Virus record (IMG/VR): IMGVR_UViG_3300046411_001489
Span: 1-22,287 of that record
From: a virus
Strand: one strand, 5' to 3'
DNA length: 22,287 nt
Position 1 is the stretch's first letter; each line of letters starts with the position of its first letter. A model generated the notes under the pieces. The model did no database searches, was not told the origin of the DNA, and saw only the letters and a list, made by a program, of their open reading frames with translations. The position numbers and the translations under genes are program-made. Shown here one piece after another: positions 11,386-18,965 of this stretch.

Positions 11386-11760
11386 ATGAAACGTAAGCCA
11401 TTAAAAAGAAAGACCCCAATGAAGCGGAGTCAAAAACCAATGAAGAGGACACCCTTAAAACGGCAAAGTTCAAGCAAGTCTGCTAAGGAAAAAAGACAAA
11501 GTTATGCTACTGCCAAAAAACAATATATGCATGATAGAGGATGCAAAAAACACCATTGCGAAAGATGCGAAGGGTTGTACGGCATAGAATACCTAGATTT
11601 GCATCATAAATCAGGCAGAAAAGGTTCCTCCCTAAATGAAAATGGAATTATGGAAAGAAATCTAACCAACAAAGCAACATTTATGGCAGTATGCAGAACT
11701 TGCCATGACTGGATTCATAAAAATCCAATTGAGAGCAGAGAGAAAGGATGGTTAATATGA
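11386..11760 (+). CDS. HNH-type endonuclease-like protein
   Basis: A 124-residue protein. The first 40 residues are a basic, Pro-rich repeat (KRKPLKRKTPMKR, QKPMKRTPLKRQ) likely to bind DNA. A zinc-binding HNH-like core follows: C58-x2-C61, LDLHHK (H73/H74), then N residues near 93-95, C103-x2-C106-H107 and WIH (H111), ending in a GWLI tail. Phage HNH proteins of this kind nick or cleave DNA in packaging, homing or recombination; which one applies here is unknown. It overlaps the next gene by 4 or 13 nt and follows the SWIM gene without a gap. The ending REKGWLI is a pattern I recall from small phage HNH proteins, supporting a complete length. Confidence 0.8.
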   Translation: MKRKPLKRKTPMKRSQKPMKRTPLKRQSSSKSAKEKRQSYATAKKQYMHDRGCKKHHCERCEGLYGIEYLDLHHKSGRKGSSLNENGIMERNLTNKATFMAVCRTCHDWIHKNPIESREKGWLI

Positions 11761-12500
11761 AAGAATTATTAATAGCTGTTCCATCCCTTGGCAGGCCCTA
11801 CCAAATAGAAAAAAACACAGGGTTTTGGCTTAAGGAATTAAAAAACTTTGACTATAAAATATTTATAGAACCAAGAGAAAGGATTTACTACAAGCAAACA
11901 TGCAATCAAAAACACTTAATATCTACCGAAAATGATATTGGTCTAAAAGGGCAAATATACAACATAAGAGATTACGCTAGAGACAAAGGATATAAGTACA
12001 TCATGAAATGTGATGATGATATGTGGTTTCTAAAAAAAGGCGTAGGCAAAAAAAGATGCGTTGAAACTATCGAGCATGCATTAGCAGAAATAACCCATGA
12101 GATGGAAAATGACAGCTCCATTGGCGGAGTAACAATAACAAAGGCAGCTGGATATTTAAGAAATCCAGCAAAATCTTTATGGCTGTATAAAAAAAATAAA
12201 CCTTTTTATTCAAATAGCATCTCAAGAACAGAGTTATTCAATGTCCCTGAAGAGGCAGATATATTCGTGGATTTATCTTTAGCATTAGAATGCGTCACTA
12301 AAGGTTTTTCTACAAAAACATATGGCAGGGCATATGAATCATGTATAACATTTAAAAATAAAGGTGGATTTCAATCAACCGATAGGGATGCATTATCAAG
12401 AGAAGTATTTAAAAAGTTAAAAAAAGTTTACCCCGAAATTAAGGAAAGGCCCGAAACCAAAAACCCGTGCTTCGACATTGATGTTTCTGCATATTTCTAA
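11757..12500 (+). CDS. GT-A-type glycosyltransferase-like protein 1 (TAGT-like)
   Basis: Starts as MKELLIAVPSLGRPYQ, with a beta strand and GR turn typical of nucleotide-sugar binding GT-A folds. YIMKCDDDMWF places the DDD motif at residues 86-88 (from this start) after a helix with RDYARDKGY; the acidic cluster is the expected metal/UDP-sugar binding site. I see no membrane segment. The pattern PS-GR plus DDD recalls the TET-associated glycosyltransferases found in phages by comparative genomics, which modify hydroxymethylated bases; this is inference, as no TET/JBP enzyme is in the window. I prefer ATG 11757 (ATGA overlap, AGAAAGGA upstream) to ATG 11748. It shares its motif pattern with the gene at 13643 and flanks a RecU-like and a ParB-domain gene. 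Confidence 0.7.
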   Translation: MKELLIAVPSLGRPYQIEKNTGFWLKELKNFDYKIFIEPRERIYYKQTCNQKHLISTENDIGLKGQIYNIRDYARDKGYKYIMKCDDDMWFLKKGVGKKRCVETIEHALAEITHEMENDSSIGGVTITKAAGYLRNPAKSLWLYKKNKPFYSNSISRTELFNVPEEADIFVDLSLALECVTKGFSTKTYGRAYESCITFKNKGGFQSTDRDALSREVFKKLKKVYPEIKERPETKNPCFDIDVSAYF

Positions 12501-12969: not shown

Positions 12970-13650
12970 ATGGAACAATCAAATATAAATAAAAAATTAG
13001 AAGTTCATGAAATAGATATAACCTCAGTAACTCCAGCAGAGTATAATCCTAGAACTTTATCTCAAAAGAAATTTGAAGACATAAAAGATTCTCTGACAAG
13101 ATTTGGTTTTGTTGACCCAGTTATAGTTAATAAATCGAAAGAAAGGGAAAACATTATTGTAGGAGGGCATCAGCGAGTAAAGGTAGCAAGAGAAATGGGC
13201 TACAAGTCTGTGCCAGCAGTATTCGTAGATTTAAATTTAGAAGAAGAAAAAGAATTAAACGTTAGGTTAAATAAAAACCAAGGAGAATGGGATTTCTCAA
13301 TACTTAAACAAACATTCAACTCGGAAAATTTAGTAGATTGGGGTTTTGCTGAACAAGAGTTGTCATCTCAATTTAAAGAAATTGATAAAATAGAAGAAAA
13401 AGCATTAGAAGAAGAAGCGGAGTTAAATGAAAAAAAATATCCCATAATCCCTAAGTACAATGAAAAGTACACAACTTTTTTAATATTTTGTAATAATGAA
13501 CTAGATGTTCATTGGATGAAAAATTTTCTTGGATTAACTGAAACTCATCAAGATTACAAAAGCAATGCAGTATCTCCCTCGCATTGCATAACGGCTGAAA
13601 GGTTTCAAGAAATAATACTTAATAATTCGGAAGCTCCTGCTGATGAATGA
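12970..13650 (+). CDS. ParB/sulfiredoxin-like domain protein
   Basis: A 226-residue protein. The ParB N-terminal domain spans residues 10-105: ITSVTPAEYNPRTLS (NPR at 26-28), FGFVDPVIVN and IIVGGHQRVKVAREMGY, with the conserved GGHQR (65-69) that binds nucleotide in the ParB/sulfiredoxin superfamily. EELNVRLNKNQGEWD-like segments (here ELNVRLNKNQGEWDF) are a family feature of phage ParB-like proteins. The helix-turn-helix and dimerisation domains of chromosomal ParB are missing; instead there is a C-terminal domain from about 145 (YPIIPKYNEKYTTFLIF ... YKSN ... CITAERF). Such proteins can be CTPases, nucleases or adaptors for methyltransferases; no methyltransferase is in the window. It overlaps glycosyltransferase-like gene 2 by 8 nt. 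Confidence 0.85.
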   Translation: MEQSNINKKLEVHEIDITSVTPAEYNPRTLSQKKFEDIKDSLTRFGFVDPVIVNKSKERENIIVGGHQRVKVAREMGYKSVPAVFVDLNLEEEKELNVRLNKNQGEWDFSILKQTFNSENLVDWGFAEQELSSQFKEIDKIEEKALEEEAELNEKKYPIIPKYNEKYTTFLIFCNNELDVHWMKNFLGLTETHQDYKSNAVSPSHCITAERFQEIILNNSEAPADE

Positions 13651-14395
13651 AATAGTAAAAGTTGTTAGCCCTAGTATGGGCAGAGCAAGGAGTACAAAGA
13701 CTCAAAACATAATAGATAATGTAGCTTTTGTAGTGCCAAATAGAGAAGCTGATGAATATAAAGAATCATTACCAAATAATGAAATAATTGGATGCCCCGA
13801 TAGTATTAAGGGAATAGTAGCAACTAGGCAATGGATGCTTGAAAAATGGTCGAATATATTTATGGCAGATGATGATATATATGTAGTGAGAAGACAATTT
13901 GAAGTGACACAAAAAGTTGAAACTAACGTAACAGACCCAAGTTTTGCATGGCAGTTAATTCAAGATTTAGCATCAATTACAAAGCAAATGGGAGGTTTCC
14001 ACTTTGGGTTTTCAAATGCAAGAGAGCCAGTTCAGTTTGAGGCTGGCAAGCCAATCGTTCATACAAAATACATAAATAATAGTTTTATGGGATTTTTAGA
14101 AGGTCACAATTTGAAATATGACTTAACCTTCGATGAGGCGGAAGATTATTACATATGTTGCATGAATATTTACAAAAATAGATTTTCAGTAATTGACCAA
14201 AGGTATGTATTCAAGACATATCAAAATTTCACCGCAGATGGAGGCTGCTCGCTTTATAGAACCCAAGAGTCAATGGTAAGGAATACTGAAAGACTACGTG
14301 CTTTATTTGGAGCTGAGATAGTTAAGGATAAAGTCATGAGTAAATTGAAAAAATCAATAAACAAGGGAGAGCGAACCCTAATATTTCCATTCTAA
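13643..14395 (+). CDS. GT-A-type glycosyltransferase-like protein 2 (TAGT-like)
   Basis: A 250-residue protein beginning MNEIVKVVSPSMGRARST. After a segment SIKGIVATRQWMLEKW comes NIFMADDDIYV with DDD at 76-78, the putative nucleotide-sugar/metal site. The PS-x-GR start, a helix before the motif and the DDD strand match the gene at 11757 in order and spacing, so the two are likely distant homologues. Later features include HFGFSNAREPVQ, a FDEAEDYYICCMNIYKN region that could be the acidic acceptor/catalytic part, and a basic end (KLKKSINKGERT). The substrate is unknown; a phage DNA base is possible. Overlaps the ParB gene by 8 nt and the next small gene by one base (TAATG). Confidence 0.7.
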   Translation: MNEIVKVVSPSMGRARSTKTQNIIDNVAFVVPNREADEYKESLPNNEIIGCPDSIKGIVATRQWMLEKWSNIFMADDDIYVVRRQFEVTQKVETNVTDPSFAWQLIQDLASITKQMGGFHFGFSNAREPVQFEAGKPIVHTKYINNSFMGFLEGHNLKYDLTFDEAEDYYICCMNIYKNRFSVIDQRYVFKTYQNFTADGGCSLYRTQESMVRNTERLRALFGAEIVKDKVMSKLKKSINKGERTLIFPF

Positions 14396-14619: not shown

Positions 14620-14874
14620 ATGCAGAGAAATGGTTCTTCAGTTTTTTTTATACCTTATTCCACATGGTATCCTATATGTGGATTAAAGTTTTTATTAAGG
14701 AAGCACATATCAAGTTTTGAAGCATACACGGAGCAGGAAGCTTCATGGAAAGCAAAAAAACAAATCAAAAATAAAAACAAATGGATGAGAATAGAATTTG
14801 GAAAACCAATAATTGATATTGAATTTCTTGCTATAGTGTCCAAACTGAAAATAAGGAAAAAATTATGCCAATAA
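14620..14874 (+). CDS. Small basic hypothetical protein (84 aa)
   Basis: The start lies behind the A/T-rich leader ttatattaataaa. The product begins with hydrophobic and aromatic residues (SVFFIPYSTWYPICGLKFLL) and then turns Lys-rich (KAKKQIKNKNKW). The hydrophobic start is too irregular for a clear signal peptide. Its last 10 nt overlap the portal gene. No family is recognised; a terminase small subunit cannot be supported from the sequence. Confidence 0.55.
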   Translation: MQRNGSSVFFIPYSTWYPICGLKFLLRKHISSFEAYTEQEASWKAKKQIKNKNKWMRIEFGKPIIDIEFLAIVSKLKIRKKLCQ

Positions 14875-16661
14875 AAGATTATATACCATTTCTAAAAAGC
14901 TCAAAGCAAGAAAACCCGCTGCCAAAATTTTCAGAATTTGATAAAAATGAAAAAGATTATCGGTTCATTGAGCGAATTACAAATTTCAAACTTAGTGAAT
15001 TAGCAGATTACGAATCATACTTAAAAGGAGCGACAGAAAAAGTATGGGCAAGCTTCAAAGCATGCGATATAACTTCAAATACGATATTACAAACTCAATA
15101 CGAAGTAGCATCTGAAGGAGGAACTGTCGTAAATAATACAGATTTGAACAATTTATTAGCGGAGCCTAATCCTCATGACACTTTTGAAGAACTCTTATAT
15201 TTAACATGCTTTCATTTAAAAGCTGTTGGTAATGCGTATTGGTTAAAAGACAGAATAGATAGTGCTGGAAGACCATCGGCTTTATATCCGCTCCTCCCGC
15301 AGTATGTTAACATAGAAACGGACGAATCTACAAAAATTAAAAGTTACGAATATAAAATAAATGGAAAAATTATAGACCTAGACCCATCTGAAATTATACA
15401 TTTTAAAAGACCTCACCCGAATGAGTCTGTTTTTGGTCTTGGTGATATAGAAGCATCACAACCATTATTTAATACATTTATAAATAATGACAACTATTCA
15501 CAAAATTTTTATAAAAATGGAGCATTTCCTTCAGGGGTTTTAGTAAGAGATGAATATGACGGGGATGAAGTTGACTGGCAAAGAATGAAAAGAAAATGGG
15601 CTTCAGAGTATACTGGTCAAGGCTCACAAGGCAGAACTGCATGGCTGAACGGAAAATGGAGCTACATACAACTAGGACTTTCTAATAAAGATTTACAAAC
15701 TATTGAGCAGTCGGAGTTAAATACAGAGCAAATATTTTTAGCGCATGGGGTTCCTTTATCGGTGGCTGGAATAAAAGAATCTTCAAATTATGCAACGGCA
15801 AGACAGGAATACATAAATTTCAGAAGACATACTGTTCTACCAATGGTGCAATTAATATTCAGCAGAATTAATCACCCTACTGGCTTCATAAAAGCTTTTA
15901 ATAAAAATTGGAAATTAAGTTATAAGCTTTCAGGCTTAATTGATGTAGAGCAAGCAGCTAAAGATTATGAGCTTTTAGTTAAGTATGGCGCGATGACATT
16001 AAACGAGTATAGGACTGCTTGTGGATTAGATGAAAGTTCTGATGAAAATCATTCAAGATATTACACAGAAAGTACAAGAGTTCCTCTAGAAATTGCAGGA
16101 GCAGAATCTATTTTGATGTCCGAAAGATTTAGGCTTCCTAGTGACCAAGAACTTGACAATGAGTTGCAGGATAACGAAATCCAACTCCCAGACGACCCAG
16201 AATTAAAAGAAGACAGAGAGGAAGAAAAAATCGGACAGCATCCTGATAGCATACACCTTAAGACAGATAAGGTTTTAATAATAAATCCGACTAAAGAAGT
16301 GTATGACGGCTATCCAAGGACAGCTAAATTAAACGCTAGGAAATCAGTAGGTTTTAGAAATTCAGGATTTTCTGGAGGCACACTAAAAATGTGGGCTATA
16401 GCGACAAGAATGTCTAAAGGCGAAAAATTATCACTTGAGCAAGTTCAGTTAGTAGCTTCAAAAATAGGATTGATAAAAGAAAAAAATAAATCCTATGGTG
16501 AGTCAAAATATGCAGTTCATCTAGATGCGTTTGGTGGAGCTAGTGGAATGAAATGGGCAAAAGATTTGTTAGATGGGATTACAAATAAATCTATAGACTG
16601 GGAAAAAGTTAAAGAGGAGGAATATTTTAGGGATGCAGACATAGAAGACTTGGAATCCTGA
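14865..16661 (+). CDS. HK97-family portal protein with extra C-terminal module
   Basis: Residues about 40-400 show the HK97-type portal pattern: LTCFHLKAVGNAYWLKD, YPLLPQYVNI, PSEIIHFKRPHP, VFGLGDIEAS, NFYKNGAFPSGVL, FLAHGVPLSVAGI and a late EYRTACGLD segment. The portal forms the dodecameric ring at one capsid vertex through which DNA enters and the tail joins. Typical members end near 400-450 residues; this one has 598. After an acidic linker (430-455) comes an extra module at about 483-572 with KLNARKSVGF, KGEKLSLEQVQLVA and FGGASGMKWAKDLLDGI, which is related to two modules in the protease gene product. AAGGA lies 8 nt upstream of the start. No terminase gene precedes it in the window. 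Confidence 0.93.
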   Translation: MPIKDYIPFLKSSKQENPLPKFSEFDKNEKDYRFIERITNFKLSELADYESYLKGATEKVWASFKACDITSNTILQTQYEVASEGGTVVNNTDLNNLLAEPNPHDTFEELLYLTCFHLKAVGNAYWLKDRIDSAGRPSALYPLLPQYVNIETDESTKIKSYEYKINGKIIDLDPSEIIHFKRPHPNESVFGLGDIEASQPLFNTFINNDNYSQNFYKNGAFPSGVLVRDEYDGDEVDWQRMKRKWASEYTGQGSQGRTAWLNGKWSYIQLGLSNKDLQTIEQSELNTEQIFLAHGVPLSVAGIKESSNYATARQEYINFRRHTVLPMVQLIFSRINHPTGFIKAFNKNWKLSYKLSGLIDVEQAAKDYELLVKYGAMTLNEYRTACGLDESSDENHSRYYTESTRVPLEIAGAESILMSERFRLPSDQELDNELQDNEIQLPDDPELKEDREEEKIGQHPDSIHLKTDKVLIINPTKEVYDGYPRTAKLNARKSVGFRNSGFSGGTLKMWAIATRMSKGEKLSLEQVQLVASKIGLIKEKNKSYGESKYAVHLDAFGGASGMKWAKDLLDGITNKSIDWEKVKEEEYFRDADIEDLES

Positions 16662-16680
16662 AAAATAAATTCAACTTGAC

Positions 16681-16713
16681 ATGAAATGAATGTAGATTTC
16701 AAAAATCTTTCAT
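16681..16713. other. Nested inverted repeat across the start of the 74-aa gene
   Basis: AGATTT (16694-16699) and AAATCT (16703-16708) pair around a 3-nt loop, and outer arms ATGAAA (16681-16686) and TTTCAT (16708-16713) can also pair; the two right arms share base 16708, so they are not fully stacked. The structure covers the first bases of the ATG at 16712 and could limit its translation. TTGACA (16676-16681) lies just before it without a clear -10 partner. Confidence 0.3.
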
Positions 16714-16936
16714 GGATGATGACGACTTCGTCAATAATGCATTTAAAAAAACCTCAAAGCCTAAAAGGAGGAGTGAATCTTTTGCTGAACTTAAAAAAGC
16801 AGTAGATGAAGGTTATGAGAGGTTTTGGTCAAAACCACATAGAATAAAATTACGCCCTCAAGTCATACCTTTTGGATATTTAGATTTTTCAGGAGACGGA
16901 GAAGATGAAAAACGTGACTCTAGTGACTTGACTTAA
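16712..16936 (+). CDS. Small hypothetical head-region protein (74 aa)
   Basis: A 74-residue product lying between portal and protease. It starts MDDDDFVNNAFKK, has a helical middle (SFAELKKAVDEGYERFW) and an acidic end (FSGDGEDEKRDSS). No family is recognised. Its position within the head operon suggests a role in capsid assembly, but no motif shows this. A possible hairpin overlaps its start. Confidence 0.6.
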   Translation: MDDDDFVNNAFKKTSKPKRRSESFAELKKAVDEGYERFWSKPHRIKLRPQVIPFGYLDFSGDGEDEKRDSSDLT

Positions 16937-16967
16937 ATTGTAAATAAATAAACAATTATAAACAGCT

Positions 16968-18965
16968 ATGAATATCGTAAAAACTTTACAAGTAACTTTT
17001 GATGAACAAAACCCTGACTTACGTCATTCTAAATTTACGACACCTTCCCTTGGGTGGGTAGATGGAATTAGGAAGAAATTTCCTGAAATATGGGAATCAG
17101 GGGACAATGGAACTTCAGATGATGCTTTTTATACATGGAAAGATTACGAAAGCGGTGTGCGCTCAGAGGCTACTGATAAATGGCTAGTAATGCGCGAGAA
17201 ATGGGCTGAATCACACAAGGAAGACGGTACCAATCTAATCGATTCTGATACCTGCCCAACTCTAGCAAAGCAAATGGTCAATATGATTAAGTGGGGAGTA
17301 GTAGGAAATATTGGACTTGATAATATTATATCAGTCATAAGCGATTTAATAGACGGGAAAGTACATGCAAAAAATATCAATTTTGAAAAAATGCATGGAG
17401 ATTATCCTGAAACAGCAGCCGATAATGCAAAAAAAGCATTAGCTTGGAAAGACGAACATTCAGATAGAAACAAAGAGTCTATTTGGGCATTAGCCGAGAA
17501 ATATGTAAGTGGTCAAAAATTTACAGAATTTGAGCTTAGAAGTATTGCAAGATTTGAATCTCAAAAAGAACATGCAGGCAAGAAGTACAAATCAATTGAG
17601 CCAGTACTTTATGATGCCGTTGGAGGAACAAATGGAATAATTTGGGCAAAAAGAATCATACAAGGAATAGATTCGTCTAAAAAAAAAATTTACAACCAAC
17701 GCTATAAAGCAGCGGCAGACGCTCTAAAAAGTGAGCATGATGTAAAGCATATTAGGAATGTCGAAGAAACAGCCGATTCTTATATTATAGAATTTGGTAA
17801 ATCTGATGACGACATAATGAGTGAAGAAGAAGATTACGTAGAGTCAGAAAAAGTAGATTCCGTACCATCATATCTTAAATTAAATGCAAAACGTGGATTA
17901 AGCCTCCTTGAGCATGCTGGAGGAGGACTTACCGAGGGTACTAAAAGAGAAGCGAGAGCAATGGTTGAAGGAAGTGTATCTGACGGTAAAGTTGTTCGTA
18001 TGAGTGCTTGGTTTTTAAGGCATAAGGATGATTTAAGCTCATCTGATGCAAGTGCATATTTGCGCGGAGATAGTGACAAACCAACCGCTGGTCAAGTAGC
18101 ATGGTTATTATGGGGTGGAGATTTATCAGCCTCTAATCGAATGCGCGCACAAAAATGGGCAGAGTCTAAAGCAGACAAAATAAGGGGTGAAGAATCTGAA
18201 AGCAGTTACCACGATGAAGAAGAAGAAAAAGGCAACTATGAAGAAGAAGAACGCTCCGTTGTTTCTTTTAATGTTAAAGGGAAAAAATATTTTGCTAAAT
18301 TATTAGAACAAGGTCAGTCAACTGATGAAGTGGAGCTATTATATAAAAGCGAAGATGGAAACCTCTTTAATACAGGAACAAAAATTTCCTTACCTGAAGA
18401 AGATTTTGTTTCTGAAGAAATAGATGCCCCTAATAGAGTTGCGAAAAATTGGTCAACGCAGGCTCCGATAACGGAGACTAAATCGTTTGAAAGTATTAAA
18501 GACGAAAATGGTATTGTATTGGATTATAAAGACGTAACCTTTAAAGGCTATGCATCAACGAATGAATCCATAACAAAAGGAGACAGAATCGGAGATTACT
18601 TGAAAAGGGGAGCATTTAAGAAAACTATAAATAATTTTATGCAAAACCCAGTAATGTTAATTGACCATCAAAATAGCGTTAGGGAAATCGCAGGAACTTA
18701 CACAAAAATCTACGAAGATAAAAATGGATTAATGGTGGAAGGTAAAATTTCTAATTCGCCAGAATTAAAAAACATAAGATTTTTAATTGCAGAAGGTCAC
18801 TTAAAGACATTAAGCATAGGAGGAATGTTTTTATACGGAGAAGATGGCAAGTCAATAGATGAAGTAAATTTGTATGAAATTTCCTTGGTTGCTATACCAA
18901 TGAATCCAGACGCTTTATTCAGCGTTAGGAATGTAGATGAAGAATTCTTTTTTAAAAAAATATAA
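16968..18965 (+). CDS. HK97-type prohead protease with long N-terminal extension holding two modules
   Basis: Only the last 155 of 665 residues form the HK97 gp4-like (S78) prohead protease: KDVTFKGYASTNE, GDYLKRGAFKKTI, PVMLIDHQNSVREIAGTY (catalytic His near 567), HLKTLSIGGMF (catalytic Ser near 616) and NLYEISLVAIPMNPDA (acidic residue near 637). It cleaves the capsid delta domain and itself during maturation. The roughly 500-residue extension holds an unknown N-terminal part (1-140), module B at about 146-234 (DNAKKALAWK ... AVGGTNGIIWAKRIIQGI) and module C at about 301-406 (KLNAKRGLSL ... GQVAWLLWGGDL ... QKWAES), followed by an acidic linker (408-428). Modules B and C resemble the portal C-terminal module. 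Standard proteases have near 160-230 residues, so this is a fusion. TTGACT (16928-16933) lies upstream. Confidence 0.9.
   Translation: MNIVKTLQVTFDEQNPDLRHSKFTTPSLGWVDGIRKKFPEIWESGDNGTSDDAFYTWKDYESGVRSEATDKWLVMREKWAESHKEDGTNLIDSDTCPTLAKQMVNMIKWGVVGNIGLDNIISVISDLIDGKVHAKNINFEKMHGDYPETAADNAKKALAWKDEHSDRNKESIWALAEKYVSGQKFTEFELRSIARFESQKEHAGKKYKSIEPVLYDAVGGTNGIIWAKRIIQGIDSSKKKIYNQRYKAAADALKSEHDVKHIRNVEETADSYIIEFGKSDDDIMSEEEDYVESEKVDSVPSYLKLNAKRGLSLLEHAGGGLTEGTKREARAMVEGSVSDGKVVRMSAWFLRHKDDLSSSDASAYLRGDSDKPTAGQVAWLLWGGDLSASNRMRAQKWAESKADKIRGEESESSYHDEEEEKGNYEEEERSVVSFNVKGKKYFAKLLEQGQSTDEVELLYKSEDGNLFNTGTKISLPEEDFVSEEIDAPNRVAKNWSTQAPITETKSFESIKDENGIVLDYKDVTFKGYASTNESITKGDRIGDYLKRGAFKKTINNFMQNPVMLIDHQNSVREIAGTYTKIYEDKNGLMVEGKISNSPELKNIRFLIAEGHLKTLSIGGMFLYGEDGKSIDEVNLYEISLVAIPMNPDALFSVRNVDEEFFFKKI

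Follow-up and report, generated by a model that had tools for sequence, protein, structure and literature searches.

In most tailed phages, to our knowledge, little is understood of how a portal protein and a prohead protease come to be chosen for one growing prohead. The stretch of viral DNA analysed here (the window; positions 1 to 22,287 of IMG/VR record IMGVR_UViG_3300046411_001489, 22,287 nucleotides) bears on this question. A preliminary description had proposed that a single module is used three times in it, once in the portal (copy A) and twice in the extension of the protease (copies B and C), as the outcome of duplication and dispersal between these proteins (Table 1). Are the three segments copies of one module, how did they reach two unrelated proteins, and what might they do there?

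Table 1. Features of the window, with nucleotide positions numbered from its first letter
Feature	Position	Strand	Remarks
Portal protein, 598 aa, HK97 type	14865..16661	+	PF04860 6e-57; TIGR01537 1.6e-35
Portal fold			portal residues 64-385
Module copy A	16311..16583	+	portal residues 483-573, C-terminal tail; net charge +9
74-aa gene between portal and protease	16712..16936	+	ORF lists
Prohead protease, 665 aa	16968..18965	+	long N-terminal extension, roughly 500 residues
N-module	16992..17378	+	protease residues 9-137; differs from A/B/C module
Module copy B	17400..17672	+	protease residues 145-235; net charge 0
Module copy C	17862..18185	+	protease residues about 299-406; net charge +4
Peptidase_S78 catalytic domain	18537..18923	+	protease residues 524-652; PF04586 1e-15; TIGR01543 1e-17
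Probable major capsid protein, 533 aa	19050..20651	+	assigned by gene order and composition

The positions given in that description are correct, with portal residue 483 falling on base 16311 and protease residue 406 on base 18185. Elsewhere in the window, two 250-residue proteins (11748-12500 and 13643-14395) show weak mutual similarity (BLASTP E 0.002, in a single comparison), and a DDD motif present in both suggests that they are glycosyltransferase-like. The 74-residue gene (16712-16936) has a counterpart at the same position in the lineage L024 (6849-7070), its sequence being partly conserved.

One helical module in three copies

Copies A and B can be recognised as relatives by direct comparison. 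Their alignment spans the whole length of both and scores 117 by Smith-Waterman (Z 16), where shuffled sequences give 28.8 +/- 5.4 and none of 1000 reaches that score. Pairwise comparisons of A with C and of B with C were not significant against shuffles (Z 1.1 and 0.9), as would be expected if three helical segments merely resembled each other by chance. These two pairs were settled by profiles built from relatives, which were gathered from public phages and viral contigs. A profile of the C family containing no A or B rows matches both A and B at E about 1e-4. Profile-profile alignment, which the preliminary description had named as a check together with structure prediction and a database search, gave P 2e-15 over 92 columns for A/B against the C family, the C profile in this comparison including two phage rows later placed in the A/B clade. 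Furthermore, a profile of 141 distinct viral copies, from which members of the window's lineage were excluded, picks out exactly the three segments in the two window proteins: A (residues 483-573, E 5.4e-8), B (145-235, 1.5e-8) and C (299-404, 2.1e-15). The same profile had zero matches in 2000 shuffled sequences and in the reversed window proteins. This result refutes chance resemblance, whose probability we regard as negligible.

The predicted structures agree. AlphaFold2 models of A (pLDDT 94.0, pTM 0.85, six helices; the underlying alignment took in other family members) and of C (pLDDT 89.3, pTM 0.82) show an identical order of elements, namely a short strand, a long helix, a helix, a strand, two helices, a helix and a long terminal helix. 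Compared in this way, by element order, both models place a Gly-Gly turn before the terminal helix. Because the independent profile locates all three segments, its controls are empty and the predicted folds of A and C correspond, a single module used three times is borne out: the three segments represent one helical module of about 100 residues, here called the WGGD module. The residue pattern originally described for it is indeed shared, apart from the spacing of one to six residues between GG and WA, which is wrong for C (12 residues). Copy C keeps the conserved F-x-R-H and W-x-x-W-G-G-D residues of the family (as F-L-R-H and W-L-L-W-G-G-D). What is left in A and B is the GG and a later Trp-Ala; the Arg-His and the first Trp are lost, and so any activity of other members may be absent from these two copies.

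The module is without a Pfam or NCBIfam model, and searches of both collections gave no convincing match to any of the three copies. Neither the sequence profile nor the fold (Foldseek and VIA-align 2; best Z 3.3) found a convincing relative in the PDB, which does not imply that the fold is novel. In BFVD the model of A has 29 matches below E 0.001, whose names include prohead protease, XkdF and portal. The closest existing definition is PHROG 2859 (740 positions), which has no assigned function and holds the module at positions ~155-270, but which describes a family of long phage proteins rather than a domain. It matches module-bearing carriers over the module residues at about 1e-6 to 1e-34, and the window's C region at 1.6e-7; a search with it did not recognise A or B. 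DUF3140 (PF11338) has a motif order that we take to be roughly collinear with that of the module (Gly-Arg, Leu-Ser/Thr, Met, Arg-His, Trp-Gly-Asp), and kinship with it was rejected when hhalign gave no significant match (P 0.0054, probability 6.8%). Kinship with DUF7855 was likewise rejected on a weak match below the cut-off. A literature search covering main texts found neither PHROG 2859 nor the conserved strings of the module.

Carriers and history of the copies

The search for the module in other phage head proteins was strongly positive, with at least 570 viral-contig matches confirmed. When 30 representative viral carriers were scanned against PHROGs, 16 proved to be portals from several PHROG families, some of them fused on to a MuF-type domain, and 10 to be proteases or protease-capsid fusions (S78, ClpP-like and others); the other four had no PHROG assignment. 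In portals it comes after the portal fold or lies between portal and MuF, and in proteases it occupies either end. Named examples include portals of HRTV-28 and HATV-3, proteases of HGTV-1 and phiPsal1, capsid-protein fusions in Roseobacter and Synechococcus phages, and a minor head protein of a Nodularia phage. The single copies of Roseobacter phage CRP-821 and Synechococcus phage S-CBS3 lie N-terminal to a protease-capsid fusion. Stand-alone module genes occur in PaBG, where the gene adjoins topoisomerase genes, S-CBS4 and SCTP-2, and ParB-like and Dps-like carriers appear, by name, in BFVD.

The preliminary description had also suggested that the module might serve to fix the protease at the portal vertex or to bind a common inner target. 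At the loci read with 5-6 kb flanks, a scope that covers neighbouring genes, only the window's lineage has the module in two different proteins or has two copies within a single protein, and among the loci sampled that lineage alone carries it in both portal and protease. As no sampled locus outside the lineage has the two-protein arrangement, the module is unlikely to serve in general as a homotypic anchor between protease and portal; within the window's lineage such a role is possible.

Module trees place A and B in one subfamily, together with SCTP-2 gp459, HGTV-1 gp11 and the tail of an unrelated portal, and C in the other. In a reduced tree A and B are sisters (support 95/90), and dropping either leaves the position of the other unchanged. 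A single clade of A, B and C is rejected (p-AU 0.0095). The proposed history of duplication and spread thus holds for A and B and fails for C. Both A and B sit at the same places in the lineages L024 and L025, so that a single duplication predating the split of these lineages from that of the window is most likely. C is present in L024 and its slot is empty in L025; the parsimonious reading is that it was acquired separately from another subfamily, either later or with a loss in L025. Since the alignment is short and the branches of A and B are long, their sister relation is likely rather than certain. As a separate observation, the L025 portal tail (L025:5001-6923) and protease (L025:7252-9054, at about the place of C) contain cysteine-rich stretches; a four-cysteine tail common to the two proteins was considered and rejected, the alignment being no better than shuffles.

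Might recombination simply pile such modules up at tolerant protein ends, where they would persist without a strong role? The patchy distribution, with its empty C slot in L025, and the fast divergence of A and B would fit. Such passive accumulation nevertheless leaves unexplained why all three lineages keep A and B, why the core residues are conserved and the folds confidently predicted, and why the same two kinds of protein have been fused repeatedly and independently; we consider it very improbable.

Other shared parts and a bacterial gene pair

The WGGD module is not the only small part to use these carriers. A profile of the N-module built from four rows matches the L013 and L014 protease-capsid fusions (4e-22 and 1.5e-21) and a portal-MuF fusion (L015:2913-6182; 3e-17), where the N-module follows the portal part; the fusion partners in L013 and L015 were read from their translations. 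In pairwise comparison the N-module did not resemble any of the three copies. It was also observed in Salinibacter phage proteins. A DUF5824-like module with the motif VFRRGVGAYYTNPESVRPSVNSPEQWAYARVNSFL is common to portals and proteases, often alongside the WGGD module (L010, L013, L015, L018-L021, L037, L048, L084, L086, L108 and others); DUF5824 was not found in the literature search of main texts. The sharing of a part by portal and protease therefore exemplifies something more general, and the pattern is one of accessory-domain shuffling among phage head proteins, a kind already known. Polyvalent-protein phages append domains to MuF and portal proteins that enter the head (Iyer et al. 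2017, PMC5512222, in the portion available to us); as described there, their accessory domains are mostly enzymes, whereas the WGGD module has no recognised catalytic fold.

The module also extends beyond phages. A profile scan confirmed 305 copies in bacterial and archaeal genomes, and in one bacterial family 18 of 151 genomes carry it. Among the best 80 of the 305, whose loci were examined, the copies are mostly stand-alone alphaproteobacterial proteins of about 95-150 residues. Proteins of this type from Sphingomonas, Rhizobium, Novosphingobium and others are the full-length module and mostly match the viral profile at E 1e-31 to 1e-42. Unlike the phage carriers they are single-domain, with no fusion to a head protein, and the annotated regions that were read look non-phage. 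At 34 of the 80 loci (within L204-L269), a DUF2945/Hva1_TUDOR gene adjoins the module on the same strand, with a median gap of 26 bp and a maximum of 101. Additionally, PF11160 (Hva1_TUDOR) scores above cut-off in two module-bearing phage proteins, the L049 protease-capsid fusion and the Nodularia minor head protein. Bacterial adjacency and phage fusion together provide good evidence that the module and Hva1_TUDOR work together. The Nodularia protein (L277:5416-7017) combines Hva1_TUDOR and the WGGD module with an inorganic pyrophosphatase domain (PF18823). In the window's own protease, Hva1_TUDOR had no match downstream of C, and a Tudor-like barrel considered at residues ~424-490 was rejected, with no match to the DUF2945 profile or by hhalign. 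The literature search of main texts found DUF2945 only in a Pfam update.

Given its presence in many unrelated phages and as a separate bacterial gene, the module resembles a reusable component that serves inside the phage head as it forms. It might instead be packaged cargo, an accessory domain that enters the head on any entering protein, is perhaps freed by proteolysis and is delivered with the DNA. DUF5824-like modules (in portals and proteases) and the N-module (in both kinds) ride on the same carriers, the Nodularia minor head protein adds two further domains, and effector domains fused to MuF and portal domains are documented in PMC5512222. The module, however, contains no recognised catalytic motif or enzyme fold, its conserved polar residues are lost in A and B, and a portal-borne copy would remain in the virion unless cleaved, all of which make delivery as cargo rather improbable.

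Possible roles inside the head

The interior of the prohead is where portal C-termini, MuF-linked portals and protease termini all come to lie, and delivery to that place thus appears to be the constant requirement of the module. Its composition sets it apart from its hosts: modules have a mean net charge of +5.5 per 100 residues (88% positive), against -4.6 for the rest of the same carriers (5% positive). Among the bacterial stand-alone copies, many have a short basic tail at the end. Two Xanthomonas proteins (L255:4923-5861 and L265) bear the module, that of L255 with a long Lys/Ala-rich tail; the Xanthomonas Lys/Ala tail matches a histone H1-like DNA-binding family weakly (E 0.0058, below cut-off). 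From the basic modules, the basic tails and the location of carrier ends we tentatively favour, while holding it well short of established, an anion-binding role in the head interior. The carrier protein would bring the module inside; its basic surface would there bind an acidic partner, most likely DNA; and binding may help to keep the carrier, or the genome as it enters, in place while the head assembles and DNA is packaged. With three copies on two carriers, avidity may be higher or two stages of assembly may be served. As no solved structure like the fold was found, putative DNA binding rests on charge and context.

Several observations bear on this reading. Copy B is neutral and the Arg-His is lost in A and B, both of which count against it. 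The protease of HK97-like phages is active before DNA entry, and a DNA binder carried on it would need some other acidic target at that stage. We favour DNA as first candidate and the acidic N-terminus of the capsid protein as second. In addition, some carriers are not head proteins (the PaBG stand-alone gene, and the ParB-like and Dps-like proteins by name), which counts against a role confined to the head interior.

The early action of the protease would be explained if portal- and protease-borne modules instead docked on one inner protein, recruiting both into the nascent prohead. Candidate partners are a separate scaffold or the N-terminal part of the capsid protein, which is acidic (net charge -13 over the first 160 residues) and scaffold-like. 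Such docking would suit the alternation of portal and protease carriers across phages, since both proteins must be taken up into the prohead. It leaves unexplained the stand-alone bacterial chromosomal genes paired with Hva1_TUDOR and the carriers that are not head proteins, and we regard it as possible but unlikely.

In tailed phages, the WGGD, DUF5824-like, N- and Hva1_TUDOR modules could conceivably form a small interchangeable vocabulary that marks or equips the protein entering the prohead, be it portal or protease, the WGGD module being kin to one half of a Hva1_TUDOR pair that may act on DNA; we advance this as a speculative suggestion, more doubtful than the anion-binding role itself. 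Overall, a phage-head family that lacks a Pfam or NCBIfam model is here linked to a recurrent, uncharacterised gene pair of alphaproteobacteria, and a module that in many phages moves between two unrelated proteins offers a direct handle on entry into the head.
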